A DNA stretch of 64,000 bases from Haloplanus sp. GDY1 (GTDB lineage Archaea > Halobacteriota > Halobacteria > Halobacteriales > Haloferacaceae), in contig NZ_CP098514.1 in assembly GCF_023703775.1 (NCBI RefSeq), forward strand, positions 744,001-808,000, in the 5' to 3' direction. The notes below the pieces were generated by a model, which did no database searches, was not told the DNA's origin, and saw only the letters and a program-made list of their open reading frames with translations. Position 1 is the stretch's first letter, and each line of letters begins with the position of its first letter. Positions 38,186-44,000 of this stretch are shown piece by piece. The translations under genes and the position numbers were made by a program.

Positions 38186-39714
38186 TAATCGAAGCGCTGA
38201 TCGCCATCACGTTCGTCGCCTCGATGGCCGTGTTGCTGGCCCCGGACGAGTGGGCCGGCCGCCTCGCGGCGGCGCTGAGCCTGCTCCCCGTCGCGGGGAG
38301 CCTCTACATGTGGAGTCGCTTCGACGCGACGGGCAACGCCCTCACCGGCGGTGACCTCGCGTTCGAGACGATGATCCCGTGGCTGGAACTCGGTGGGTAC
38401 ACGATCAACTGGCACGTCGGCGTCGACGGCATCGGCCTGCCGCTGGTGGTGCTCACCACCGTCCTGACGACGCTCGCCATCGTGAGCGCGTGGACCCCGA
38501 TCGACGACCGCCAGTCCCAGTTCTACGGGCTGATGCTGTTCATGGAGGCGAACCTGCTGGGCGTGTTCACCGCGCTCGACTTCTTCGTCTGGTTCGTCTT
38601 CTGGGAGGCCGTCCTCCTGCCGATGTACTTCCTCATCGGCGTCTGGGGCGGCCCGCGGCGGAAGTACGCCGCGATCAAGTTCTTCGTCTACACCAACGTC
38701 GCGTCGCTGGCGATGTTCATCGGCTTCGTCGCGCTGGTGTTCGGCCTGGGCGACTCGGTGTCGTCGCTGGACATGCCCGCCATCGCGCAGGCGTTGCGCG
38801 CGGGCGAACTCGGGTCGTTGTACGGAATTCCGGCCGCGACGCTGCGGAGCGTCGCCTTCGTGGCGATGTTCCTCGGCTTCGCGGTGAAGGTGCCGGTCGT
38901 CCCCTTCCACACGTGGCTGCCGGACGCCCACGTCGAGGCGCCGTCGCCGGTGTCGGTGATGCTGGCGGGCGTCCTTCTGAAGATGGGGACCTACGCACTG
39001 CTGCGGTTCAACTTCACGATGCTGCCGGAGACGGCGACGGCCTTCGTCGTCCCCATCGCCCTGATCGCCGTCGTGAGCGTCATCTACGGTGCGATGCTCG
39101 CGCTGGCCCAGCAGGACCTCAAGCGCATCGTCGCGTACTCCTCCGTCTCCTCGATGGGCTACGTGATCCTCGGCCTCGTCGCCTACACCACCTACGGGGT
39201 CGGCGGCGCGACGTTCCAGATGATCGCCCACGGCCTCATCTCCGGGCTGATGTTCATGTCGGTCGGCGTCATCTACAACGCGACCCACACCCGGATGGTG
39301 GGCGACATGTCCGGGATGGCCGACCGGATGCCGGTCACCGTCGGCATCCTGGTCGCCGGCGCCTTCGGCTACATGGGCCTGCCCCTGATGGCCGGCTTCG
39401 CCGGCGAGTTCTTCATCTTCAAGGGCGCCTTCGCGTCGACGGTGCACGCGGCCATGCCGCTCTTTACCGCCGTCGCGATGTTCGGCATCGTCGTCGTCGC
39501 GGGCTACCTGCTCTTCGCGATGCAGCGGACCCTCTTCGGCTCGTTCCGCCTGGAGACCGACTACGAGGTGGGCCCGGCCGCGCTCCACGAGACGGCGCCG
39601 CTCGCCGTCCTGCTCGCGACCATCATCCTCCTCGGGGTCGCGCCCGACCTCTTCTTCGGGATGATCCAGGACGCGGTCGATCCCCTCCTCGACTTCGGAG
39701 GTGACCTCTCGTGA
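38182..39714 (+). CDS. nuoM: NADH-quinone oxidoreductase-like subunit M
   Basis: A 510-residue antiporter-like pump. VWFVFWEAVLLPMYFLIG carries the helix-5 Glu, and VKVPVVPFHTWLPDAHVEAP with MLAGVLLKMGTYALLRFN the two Lys of helices 7 and 8. QQDLKRIVAYSSVSSMGYVI is the family loop. The ATG at 38182 is chosen over a GTG three codons earlier because it overlaps the nuoL stop exactly as elsewhere in the operon. Confidence 0.95.
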   Translation: MIIEALIAITFVASMAVLLAPDEWAGRLAAALSLLPVAGSLYMWSRFDATGNALTGGDLAFETMIPWLELGGYTINWHVGVDGIGLPLVVLTTVLTTLAIVSAWTPIDDRQSQFYGLMLFMEANLLGVFTALDFFVWFVFWEAVLLPMYFLIGVWGGPRRKYAAIKFFVYTNVASLAMFIGFVALVFGLGDSVSSLDMPAIAQALRAGELGSLYGIPAATLRSVAFVAMFLGFAVKVPVVPFHTWLPDAHVEAPSPVSVMLAGVLLKMGTYALLRFNFTMLPETATAFVVPIALIAVVSVIYGAMLALAQQDLKRIVAYSSVSSMGYVILGLVAYTTYGVGGATFQMIAHGLISGLMFMSVGVIYNATHTRMVGDMSGMADRMPVTVGILVAGAFGYMGLPLMAGFAGEFFIFKGAFASTVHAAMPLFTAVAMFGIVVVAGYLLFAMQRTLFGSFRLETDYEVGPAALHETAPLAVLLATIILLGVAPDLFFGMIQDAVDPLLDFGGDLS

Positions 39715-41216
39715 TCCCCATCCAGACACAACTGCCGACGTGGACGGCCGTCGCGCCGACGCTGCTGCTCGGCCTGACGGCGCTCGTCCTGTTCTTGGCC
39801 GACAGCATCGACCCCGACTCCACGCGACCCACGGCGCTCGCCGGCATCTCGGTGCTCGGGAGCGTCGCGGCCCTTGCCGTCGCCGGCTGGTTCCTGCTCG
39901 CCGGCACCGGCCAGGAGGGCGGCGCGATCGAACTCTACGGTGGCTCCCTCGTCGTCGACGGACTGAGCCTGTTCTTCACGGTTCTCTTCGCGAGCGTCGC
40001 CGCCATGGTGTCGCTCGCGAGCTACGACTACCTGCGTGGCCACGCCTACCAGGCGGAGTTCTACTCCCTGGTGATGCTGGCCGCGACGGGGATGAGCCTC
40101 ATGGGGTCGGCGGGGTCGCTGGCGACGGTGTTCGTCAGCCTCGAACTCGCGTCGCTGCCCTCGTACGCCCTCGTGGCCTTCCTCAAGGACAACCGGGGGA
40201 GCGTCGAGGCGGGGCTGAAGTACTTCCTCGTCGGCGCCGTCTCCTCGGCGGTGTTCGTCTTCGGCATCTCGCTCGTCTACGCCGCCACCGGCTCGCTCCT
40301 GCTGTCGGACGTCGCCGGAGCCATCGGATCCGCGGGTGACCTCGTCGGCATCGCGGGCGTGGGCGTGGTCATGATCGCCGGCGGCTTCGCGTTCAAGACC
40401 GCCTCCGTGCCCTTCCACTTTTGGGCGCCGGAGGCCTACGAGGGCGCCCCGGCACCCATCAGCGCCTTCCTCTCGTCGGCGTCGAAGGCGGCCGGCTTCG
40501 CCGTCGCGTTCCGCGTCTTCGCCGTCGCCTTCCCCATCGAGTCGGTCGTGCCCATGGGCATCGACTGGCCTCTCCTGTTCGCCGTCCTCGCCGTCATCAC
40601 GATGACGGTCGGCAACTTCGCGGCGGCGACCCAGGAGAACGTCAAGCGGATGCTGGCGTACTCCTCGGTGGGCCACGCCGGCTACGCGCTGATCGGCCTC
40701 GCCGCCCTCTCGGGCGGCGGCCCCAACGGGAACGTGATGGGCGCGAGCATGGCCCACCTGCTCGTCTACGGGTTCATGAACACCGGTGCCTTCCTGTTCA
40801 TCGCGATGGTCGAACACTGGGAGGTCGGCCGCACCTTCGAGGACTACAACGGGCTGGCGACCCGGGCGCCGGTCGCCTGCCTCGCGATGACCGTGTTCAT
40901 GTTCTCGCTGGCCGGCCTGCCGCCCTTCGGCGGGTTCCTCTCGAAGTACGCCCTCTTCTACGGGGCGATCCAGGGCGGCTTCTGGTGGCTCGCCGCGGTC
41001 GGTGCGATCAACAGTGCCCTGTCGCTGTTCTACTACTCCAGGGTCGTGAAGGCGATGTGGATCGAGGACCCCTCGGGCTCCTTCGACCTCGGATCGACGC
41101 CGCTCGGCCTCTACGCCGCGGTGATGGTCGCCGCCGTCGGCACGCTCCTGCTCCTGCCGGCGTTCGGCCCCGTCGTCGAGACGGCACAGAGCGCCGCCAC
41201 GGCGCTGTTCGCGTAG
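39711..41216 (+). CDS. nuoN: NADH-quinone oxidoreductase-like subunit N
   Basis: Last nuo gene, 501 residues, starting at a GTG within the nuoM stop. FVSLELASLPSYALVAFLKD has the helix-5 Glu, FAFKTASVPFHFWAPEAYEG the central Lys with the PFHFWAPEAYEGAP signature that separates NuoN from L and M, and VKRMLAYSSVGHAGYALIG follows. The operon ends here, with a convergent gene two bases later. Confidence 0.94.
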   Translation: MIPIQTQLPTWTAVAPTLLLGLTALVLFLADSIDPDSTRPTALAGISVLGSVAALAVAGWFLLAGTGQEGGAIELYGGSLVVDGLSLFFTVLFASVAAMVSLASYDYLRGHAYQAEFYSLVMLAATGMSLMGSAGSLATVFVSLELASLPSYALVAFLKDNRGSVEAGLKYFLVGAVSSAVFVFGISLVYAATGSLLLSDVAGAIGSAGDLVGIAGVGVVMIAGGFAFKTASVPFHFWAPEAYEGAPAPISAFLSSASKAAGFAVAFRVFAVAFPIESVVPMGIDWPLLFAVLAVITMTVGNFAAATQENVKRMLAYSSVGHAGYALIGLAALSGGGPNGNVMGASMAHLLVYGFMNTGAFLFIAMVEHWEVGRTFEDYNGLATRAPVACLAMTVFMFSLAGLPPFGGFLSKYALFYGAIQGGFWWLAAVGAINSALSLFYYSRVVKAMWIEDPSGSFDLGSTPLGLYAAVMVAAVGTLLLLPAFGPVVETAQSAATALFA

Positions 41217-41682: not shown

Positions 41683-43143
41683 ATGGTCAGGCGGCTGGTG
41701 CTCGGGTGCGGTCACGCCGGGGAGACGGTCGTCGGCGTGGTCTCGACGTGGGGCGGCGAACTCCGGGTCGTCGTTCCCGAGGACGCCCCGACGGACGCGA
41801 TCGAGGCGAACGCGGAGGTGGTCACGGGCGACCCCGCCGATCCGGAGACGTACCCGGAGTCGGCCGACGTGGTGCTCGTCCTCGGCGACGACCCCGAGCG
41901 CAACGTCGCCGCGGCCGAGCGGGCCCGAGAGGCGTTCCCCGACGCCCTGCTCGTGGCGTCGACGGGGGACGACGGCGACCCGCGAGCGCTCGACGCCGTC
42001 GCGGACCGGGTGATCGACACCCGCGGCGTCGTCACCGACCGCCTCCTCGACTCGGTGACGGGCGACGACGCCGAGCGGGTGTGGCGACTGTTGAGCGTCC
42101 TGCGTGGGATCGACGGCCGACTGGCGGTCGTGATGCACGACAACCCCGACCCCGACGCCATCGCGTCGGCGCTCGCGCTGGCCGAAATCGCCCGCTCGGT
42201 GGGCGTCGACGCCGACCCGTGTTACTACGGCGACATCTCCCACCAGGAGAACCGCGCGCTGGTGAACCTGCTGGAGCTCGACCTCCGCAACCTCGCGGCG
42301 ACGGAGGACCTCGAGGAGTACGGCGGCGTGGCGCTGGTCGATCACTCCCGCCCCGGCGTGAACGACGGCCTCGACCCCGACACCCCCGTGGACGTGGTCG
42401 TGGATCACCACCCGCCGCGGGCGCCGGTCGAGGCACGCTACGTGGACCTGCGGAGCGACGTCGGGGCGACGAGTACGCTCCTCGCGGAGTATCTGAACCG
42501 CCTCGGCCTCGATCCGGGCCGCGAGGTGGCGACCGCGCTCCTGTACGGCATCCGCATCGACACCCGGGAGTTCACCCGCGAGGCCGTCGAGGCGGACTTC
42601 GAGGCCGCCGCCTACCTCCACGACCACGTCGACGAGTCCGTCCTGGACCGGGTGGAGTCCCCGAGCATGAGCCCCGAGGTGCTGTCGACGCTGGCGGCGG
42701 CGATCCGGAACCGGGACGTGCGGGGCGACGTGCTCACCACCGGCGTCGGTCGCATCCGCGACCGGGACGCCCTGGCACAGGCCGCCGACAAACTGCTCGA
42801 CATGGAGGGGGTCTGCATCACCGTCGTCTACGGGTTCATGGACGAGACGGTGTACGTCTCCGGACGCGCCCGGGGAACGGAGGTCGACCTCGGGGAGGTG
42901 TTGCGCGACGCCCTCGGCGCCATCGGCAGCGCCGGCGGCCACGCCGACATGGCGGGCGCCCAGATTCCGCTCGGCATCCTCGGCTCCGTCGACGAGGAGT
43001 CGACCGACTCGCTGCAGCGGGTGGTCGACGAGGTGATCGCCGAACGAGTGTTCGAGGTGCTGGAGAACCCCCCGAGCGCCCCGCGCCGCGACCCGACCGC
43101 CGCCGACATCGCCTTCGAGTTCCCCCTGGCCGACGAGGGCTGA
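41683..43143 (+). CDS. DHH-family phosphoesterase with N-terminal Rossmann-like domain
   Basis: A 486-residue soluble protein. Residues 1-110 resemble a TrkA-N/RCK Rossmann domain (LVLGCGHAGETVVGVVSTWG, then VVTGDPADPETYPESADVVL). From about 145 comes a DHH domain: VVMHDNPDPDAIASALAL, VALVDHSRPG near 220 and VVDHHPPR near 243, all metal-binding. DHHA1 follows with VYVSGRARGTEVDLGEVLRD and GGHADMAGAQIPLG near 425. DHH-DHHA1 enzymes cleave nanoRNA, cyclic di-AMP, or related phosphodiesters. Substrate unproven; a signalling role is suggested by the RCK-like front. Confidence 0.85.
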   Translation: MVRRLVLGCGHAGETVVGVVSTWGGELRVVVPEDAPTDAIEANAEVVTGDPADPETYPESADVVLVLGDDPERNVAAAERAREAFPDALLVASTGDDGDPRALDAVADRVIDTRGVVTDRLLDSVTGDDAERVWRLLSVLRGIDGRLAVVMHDNPDPDAIASALALAEIARSVGVDADPCYYGDISHQENRALVNLLELDLRNLAATEDLEEYGGVALVDHSRPGVNDGLDPDTPVDVVVDHHPPRAPVEARYVDLRSDVGATSTLLAEYLNRLGLDPGREVATALLYGIRIDTREFTREAVEADFEAAAYLHDHVDESVLDRVESPSMSPEVLSTLAAAIRNRDVRGDVLTTGVGRIRDRDALAQAADKLLDMEGVCITVVYGFMDETVYVSGRARGTEVDLGEVLRDALGAIGSAGGHADMAGAQIPLGILGSVDEESTDSLQRVVDEVIAERVFEVLENPPSAPRRDPTAADIAFEFPLADEG

Positions 43144-43199: not shown

Positions 43200-44000
43200 A
43201 TGGCCGACAACGCGACCGTCGAGGAGTACATGACCCGTGACGTGGCGACCGTCTCGCCCGACGATTCGGTCGCCGAGGTGTCGCGGCGGATCGTCGAGAG
43301 CGACGGCCACACCGGCTTCCCGGTGACCGACGGCCGGCAGGTCGAGGGGTTCATCAGCGCCCGTGACCTACTGCTCGCCGACGACGACGCGCTGGTGTTC
43401 ACCGTGATGTCCGACGACCTCGTGGTCGCACATCCGGAGATGAAGGTCAACGACGCCGCGCGGGTGATCCTCCGCTCGGGCATCCAGAAACTGCCAGTCG
43501 TCGACGACGCGGGCAACCTCGTCGGCATCATCTCGAACACGGACGTCATCCGGAGTCAGATCGAGCGGGCGACGCCCAAGAAGGTCGACAAACTCCTGCA
43601 CACGCTGGAGGAGATTCACGACATCGACGCCGCGGAGGAGCGGCGACGGGTCGAACTGGCCGACCTCACGCCGACGCAGGCGCGGGTCTACGCCGACGAG
43701 TTACAGGGCCGGAGCTACGAACTCGAACACGGGCTGGCCGAACCGCTGGTCGTCATCGACAACGACGGCACGCTCCTCCTCGCCGACGGCCACCACCGCG
43801 TCATGGCGGCGAACCGCCTCGACATCGAAGAGATGGACGCCTACGTCATCGTCATCGACGCCGGGGCCGAACTCGAACTCGGGATGCAACGCACCGCCGA
43901 GAAGGAGGGCCTGGAGACCATCGACGACATCTCGGTCGTCGACTACGCGCGCCACCCGCTGATCGAGACGACCGAGCGCCTCCAGGAGGAGGACCGCTAG
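43200..44000 (+). CDS. CBS-pair protein with C-terminal ParB-like domain
   Basis: A 266-residue cytosolic protein. Two CBS motifs cover residues 1-125 (VEEYMTRDVATVSPDDSVAE, then VFTVMSDDLVVAHPEMKVND with GIQKLPVVDDAGNLVGIIS). A linker with KKVDKLLHTLEEIHDIDAAE precedes a ParB/sulfiredoxin-like region that contains YELEHGLAEPLVVIDNDGTL and ADGHHRVMAANRL near 198, the NTP/nuclease loop. CBS pairs sense adenine nucleotides. The combination may be a nucleotide-regulated switch or enzyme. Its stop codon overlaps that of the next gene on the other strand. Confidence 0.82.
   Translation: MADNATVEEYMTRDVATVSPDDSVAEVSRRIVESDGHTGFPVTDGRQVEGFISARDLLLADDDALVFTVMSDDLVVAHPEMKVNDAARVILRSGIQKLPVVDDAGNLVGIISNTDVIRSQIERATPKKVDKLLHTLEEIHDIDAAEERRRVELADLTPTQARVYADELQGRSYELEHGLAEPLVVIDNDGTLLLADGHHRVMAANRLDIEEMDAYVIVIDAGAELELGMQRTAEKEGLETIDDISVVDYARHPLIETTERLQEEDR

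Follow-up and report, generated by a model that had tools for sequence, protein, structure and literature searches.

Among proteins of solved structure, GdpP is by sequence the closest relative of the protein considered here. GdpP carries N-terminal membrane, PAS and degenerate GGDEF parts ahead of its catalytic domain. This catalytic domain (9n0l, 5xsi) is the nearest solved sequence across the entire catalytic part of our protein, and every catalytic motif is common to both. The protein encoded in the window (the whole stretch of DNA analysed, 64,000 nucleotides of Haloplanus sp. GDY1) has an RCK domain where GdpP has its N-terminal parts, and is therefore not GdpP proper. TmPDE, Rv2837c and NrnA, which are DhhP-type phosphodiesterases and nanoRNases, have the fold in common with it (Z 24–27), but are farther away in sequence and are without an RCK domain. 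At the N-terminal end, the RCK-N fold is shared with the RCK/KTN domains of TrkA, KtrA and MthK. Unlike these, the RCK of the window protein lies outside any channel, is without the RCK-C half and has lost the ligand-binding acid.

The combination of these parts has also been described. The clade for which Makarova et al. 2012 (PMC3307487) predicted nanoRNase-like activity has an identical domain order, and by its description the window protein is a member. In the available part of that paper, no haloarchaeal paralogue pair, opposite degradation or link to the cyclic di-AMP synthase domain (DAC) was found described. Cyclic di-AMP is reported to be essential for Haloferax volcanii. A 2021 annotation review (PMC8305020) names three predicted cyclic di-AMP phosphodiesterases, HVO_0756, HVO_0990 and HVO_1690, and, in the text available, calls the degrading enzyme of this organism not yet identified. 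Related enzymes differ in substrate: the archaeal DHH-DHHA1 enzyme PyapApase is reported to refuse cyclic di-AMP, which speaks against taking this substrate for granted here, and some DHH-DHHA1 enzymes reportedly work on pAp or nanoRNA.

The features of the locus are collected in table 1. The open reading frame is conserved at 51–79% identity among 80 haloarchaeal loci (kept from 287 matching loci) and is a real gene, not a chance frame. Its TrkA_N, DHH and DHHA1 matches each exceed the curated Pfam cut-off, and catalytic motifs I–IV and the GGH motif of DHHA1 are intact. The TrkA_C model for the RCK-C half gave no Pfam match in the protein up to E = 1, and the RecJ_archaeal model scored 17.4 bits, below its cut-off of 360. 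An RCK-like front fused to a DHH-DHHA1 enzyme, as an earlier note on this DNA had proposed, is borne out by the Pfam domain order and by the fold of both halves. The architecture is real, widespread and already known.

Table 1. Coordinates of the RCK-DHH-DHHA1 gene, its domains and motifs, its neighbours and its paralogue; positions are those of the window unless a contig or locus is named.
Feature	Position	Strand	Basis and remarks
RCK-DHH-DHHA1 protein, class A (catalytic residues intact)	41683..43143	+	one ORF, 486 aa; start ATG at 41683, stop ends at 43143, uninterrupted
TrkA_N / RCK-N, residues 5-111	41695..42015	+	Pfam 2.7e-8, fold; GxGxxG present, Val31 in place of the strand-2 acid
DHH domain, residues 148-290	42124..42552	+	Pfam 2.1e-11
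Motif I, H152-x-x-x-D156-x-D158	42136..42156	+	invariant in 46-row alignment; 107/107 class A
DHH motif, D241-H242-H243	42403..42411	+	107/107 class A
Motif IV Asp293	42559..42561	+	107/107 class A
DHHA1 domain, residues 351-453, GGH motif 418-420	42733..43041	+	Pfam 2.5e-14; residue counts
Two CBS domains and weak ParB-like C-terminal match (below cut-off)	43200..44000	+	Pfam; kept in 74/80 loci
Proton_antipo_M respiratory-complex gene, nuoN by position	39711..41216	+	Pfam; kept in 59/80 loci
Class B paralogue, RCK-DHH-DHHA1 order as in class A	G000:C1:2901384-2902814; L001 943-2430	-	Pfam

Structures were predicted for the whole protein (mean pLDDT 84) and separately for residues 1–130 (pLDDT 90.8). 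The N-terminal fold search that had been suggested for this protein, run on residues 1–130, returned the RCK fold, with RCK-type domains among the matches listed (MthK Z 15.8, KtrA, TrkA, Kef). Another match to the RCK is 3llv (Z 14.5), an NAD(P)-binding domain from an ‘exopolyphosphatase-related’ protein of Archaeoglobus fulgidus; it appears to derive from one of the non-haloarchaeal proteins termed class M below. Residues 127–465 matched TmPDE (Z 27.1), the Bacteroides nanoRNase BfNrn (26.7) and GdpP (26.3), as well as Rv2837c (24.3), NrnA (23.8) and RecJ (about 18.6). Fold scores by themselves do not tell cyclic di-AMP phosphodiesterases from nanoRNases, the first three scores being 27.1, 26.7 and 26.3. 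The similarity to TmPDE, BfNrn and NrnA, about equal to that to GdpP, is consistent with a second-step enzyme of the NrnA/Pde2 types, which would degrade pApA and other short RNAs and not cyclic di-AMP. The prediction made by Makarova et al. 2012 (PMC3307487) points the same way, as does the low level of pApA reported in Haloferax, so that something must remove it. We regard such an enzyme as unlikely, but as an explanation to be taken seriously.

Sequence kinship argues against it. A profile of 46 orthologues, searched against the sequences of solved structures, found GdpP first (7.6e-21, 78 bits, spanning DHH and DHHA1), with a second GdpP at 1e-16. Rv2837c and NrnA reached about 30 bits (near 1e-6) and TmPDE about 25 bits, and the match to Mn pyrophosphatase was confined to the DHH part. 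This ranking discriminates, because a control query, an NrnA-like archaeal DHH protein, picked a mycobacterial nrnA homologue (4ls9) first, and not GdpP. The phosphodiesterase kinship supposed in the earlier note thus stands by sequence, GdpP and not RecJ or NrnA being nearest. The window protein is not nearest RecJ by fold either (Z about 18.6 versus 27.1). A general nanoRNase, pAp phosphatase or RecJ-like repair nuclease unconnected with cyclic di-AMP is a quite improbable reading. Proteomic work on Haloferax, in the portion available, has HVO_0990 and HVO_1690 both up with hypochlorite and classed under DNA recombination/repair, and the pAp and nanoRNA substrates of certain relatives would suit such a function; the RecJ score falls well below the 26–27 of the phosphodiesterases, however, and a repair nuclease would not be expected to come and go with DAC.

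The distribution of the family was compared with that of the synthase across the window's phylum, in 390 genomes at least 90% complete, which were searched with the RCK-DHH profile and the DAC family. RCK-DHH was scored as present at E <= 1e-100, and 14 DAC-negative genomes were identified via their absence from the DAC positive list. RCK-DHH-DHHA1 proteins were found in 358/390 genomes and DAC in 356/390; both occur in 352 and neither in 28, so that 380/390 are concordant. The co-occurrence proposed beforehand as a check therefore holds, with 10 exceptions. Six genomes have RCK-DHH without DAC (G016, G022, G078, G093, G159 and G211), and four have DAC without RCK-DHH (G006, G042, G207 and G354). 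Fisher's p for the association is 1e-32, a value that ignores shared descent. The double-negatives comprise the whole of family f24 (23 genomes) and five of the seven of genus g56 (family f13), the other two g56 genomes having both genes. Counted as independent events, the joint absences thus number at least two. An NrnA-like DHH protein is kept in every one of the 23 f24 genomes (E <= 3e-74), so this family did not lose DHH proteins in general; the control is valid for f24 only, as g56 gave weak matches. The f24 genomes would still need nanoRNA clearance and do without RCK-DHH, which is a further point against the pApA enzyme, although an enzyme acting on pApA only would follow DAC and give the same co-occurrence.

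Two of the exceptions, G022 (RCK-DHH, no DAC) and G006 (DAC, no RCK-DHH), are single-contig genomes and look real. They may lead to further enzymes of the cyclic di-AMP pathway. A single DAC gene is present in the genome of the window. The next gene on its strand encodes a 260-aa membrane protein that by eye resembles an MscS channel, and this arrangement (L087 684-2277) fits an osmotic role.

Six DHH-domain proteins are encoded in the window genome, and the main cyclic di-AMP phosphodiesterase could be another paralogue, the membrane-anchored DHH-DHHA1 protein of class C (L004 1294-2478), with class A redundant or specialized. GdpP is first among solved structures for this protein too (5xsi, 1.2e-11), and by eye it has an apparent N-terminal membrane segment like that of GdpP. 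Its distribution is patchy, with no clear match in G017, G116 and G259, whereas RCK-DHH follows DAC phylum-wide, and we consider a leading role for class C improbable. A possible second link to RCK, given by a TrkA_N-like match next to class C, was rejected, the open reading frame being by eye a NAD-dependent-epimerase-like Rossmann protein.

The window protein belongs to class A, one of two haloarchaeal paralogues of the same domain order. The other, class B, is found in 105/106 haloarchaeal genomes at >= 59% identity, and the remaining genome (G390) has a relative at 50%. Residues were counted on one alignment of 107 class A, 78 class B and 18 class M sequences, leaving out same-gene repeats (L235 repeats L157) and 10 class A sequences identical to others. 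Class M comprises 18 of 19 non-haloarchaeal RCK-DHH proteins (G005 was left out), spread over 16 further families of the phylum. We take the acid after RCK strand 2 to bind the ribose of the nucleotide and the catalytic residues to include metal binders. The two classes are degraded at opposite ends. In class A, H152, D156, D158, D220, D241, H242, H243, D293 and R395 are each present in 107/107 sequences, and the GGH motif in all 106 with letters there. The strand-2 acid is Asp in only 10/107 (mostly Thr, 63), and G13 is kept in 81/107. In class B the RCK residues G8, G10 and G13 and the strand-2 acid are kept in 78/78, whereas H243 is found in 13/78 (Tyr 28, Phe 22), D293 in 0/78 (Glu 77, Ala 1), G418 in 4/78, G425 in 0/78, H152 in 63 and D156 in 65. 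Most class M proteins have both sites (strand-2 acid 15 Asp and 3 Glu; H243 18/18; D293 14/18, Glu 4), which implies that each haloarchaeal copy has lost one.

The rate of change of the RCK follows the same division. In 19 of 21 intended genomes, those that had both sequences, mean RCK identity is 0.40 for class A and 0.73 for class B, lower for A in 171/171 genome pairs; for the catalytic part the means are 0.65 and 0.77. Conservation of both halves of class B indicates that it is maintained and not decaying. Pfam E-values for the pair in the window genome are likewise opposed (TrkA_N 2.7e-8 for A versus 3.3e-19 for B; DHHA1 2.5e-14 versus 1.2e-6). The suggestion in the earlier note that the window protein senses a nucleotide is weakened by its Val31, by the scarcity of Asp in class A and by an RCK that is the fast-evolving part of the protein; nucleotide sensing fits the class B paralogue better.

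Two A-like copies, in G116 and G390 (L157 and L236; 364 and 368 aa), have no RCK domain and have Glu at 293. They were counted apart from class A, and among the genomes looked at only these two have such a copy. Apparent RCK loss in G059 and G188 (f1 g2) was due to a split alignment, in which the first 131 positions are present.

Best BLAST hits gave the initial division into classes A and B, and a tree on 80 of 211 sequences recovers both, class A (99/96) and class B (100/99). It unites B with the class M proteins (96/97) and places A outside, a grouping under which B and the other archaeal proteins would be orthologues. A topology constrained to group A and B with the RCK-less copies is not rejected by the AU test (p-AU 0.40), and a duplication in the haloarchaeal stem is possible.

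Gene order links both paralogues to Haloferax loci. The window gene is preceded by three Proton_antipo_M genes of nuoLMN type and, on the opposite strand, by a DUF7522 gene; the neighbour counts of table 1 come from the 80 loci kept of 287, some of which end early. The nuoN gene adjoins the class A gene in 11/11 named Haloferax loci, and HVO_0979 is nuoB in H. volcanii. HVO_0990, positioned close after this nuo cluster, is therefore the likely class A orthologue, on the basis of gene order and not of its own sequence. On the downstream side, the CBS gene begins 56 bases past the stop of the window gene, and its CBS-ParB-like product may act as a partner that senses a nucleotide, either cyclic di-AMP or AMP/ATP. 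Convergent with class B lies a PRC-barrel gene (PF05239, 1.3e-12; L001 653-946, +), which adjoins it in 24/30 B loci. Because the division protein CdpB1 is HVO_1691, class B is probably HVO_1690.

Since HVO_0990 is already in print as a candidate phosphodiesterase (PMC8305020), the core idea of the earlier note is a known prediction. Two findings are new here: the family is present or lacking together with the synthase domain, and the two paralogues have degraded in opposite ways. No description of the latter was found in the limited collection of literature searched, as far as its available text extends.

Taken together, these data make it moderately probable that the class A window protein is a catalytic phosphodiesterase and paralogue B its probable sensor counterpart, the two having split the work of a cyclic di-AMP-degrading ancestor. 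The ancestor would have been an archaeal RCK-DHH-DHHA1 protein in which neither the nucleotide-sensing RCK nor the enzyme was impaired, and two haloarchaeal paralogues would then have divided these tasks. Class A is predicted to be an Mn-type DHH-DHHA1 phosphodiesterase of the GdpP-like branch, whose presumed substrate, cyclic di-AMP, would most likely be cleaved to pApA and perhaps further to AMP. Its RCK, having usually lost the nucleotide-binding acid, would no longer bind nucleotide in the usual way and would now probably serve mainly for assembly. Retention of G13 in 81/107 sequences and of Asp in ten means that binding may persist in some. Class B, with its RCK site kept, would be a conserved and probably non-hydrolytic sensor, hydrolysis having presumably been lost with the residues named above. 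The good conservation of its catalytic half (0.77, versus 0.65 in A) and the presence of Glu293 in 4/18 class M proteins suggest that B may still be active. Joint action of A and B in one complex is speculative. A mixed assembly, in which pseudoenzyme B would read a nucleotide by its RCK and set the rate of cyclic di-AMP destruction by A, is a tentative proposal that we think rather doubtful.

Its shared distribution with the synthase domain makes the RCK-DHH family the leading cyclic di-AMP phosphodiesterase candidate of the phylum. The opposite degradation of the paralogues predicts that one copy hydrolyses without RCK nucleotide binding and that the other does the reverse, which offers a sharp and cheap test. 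A mixed A-B assembly, if true, would couple energy or redox state to osmotic signalling.
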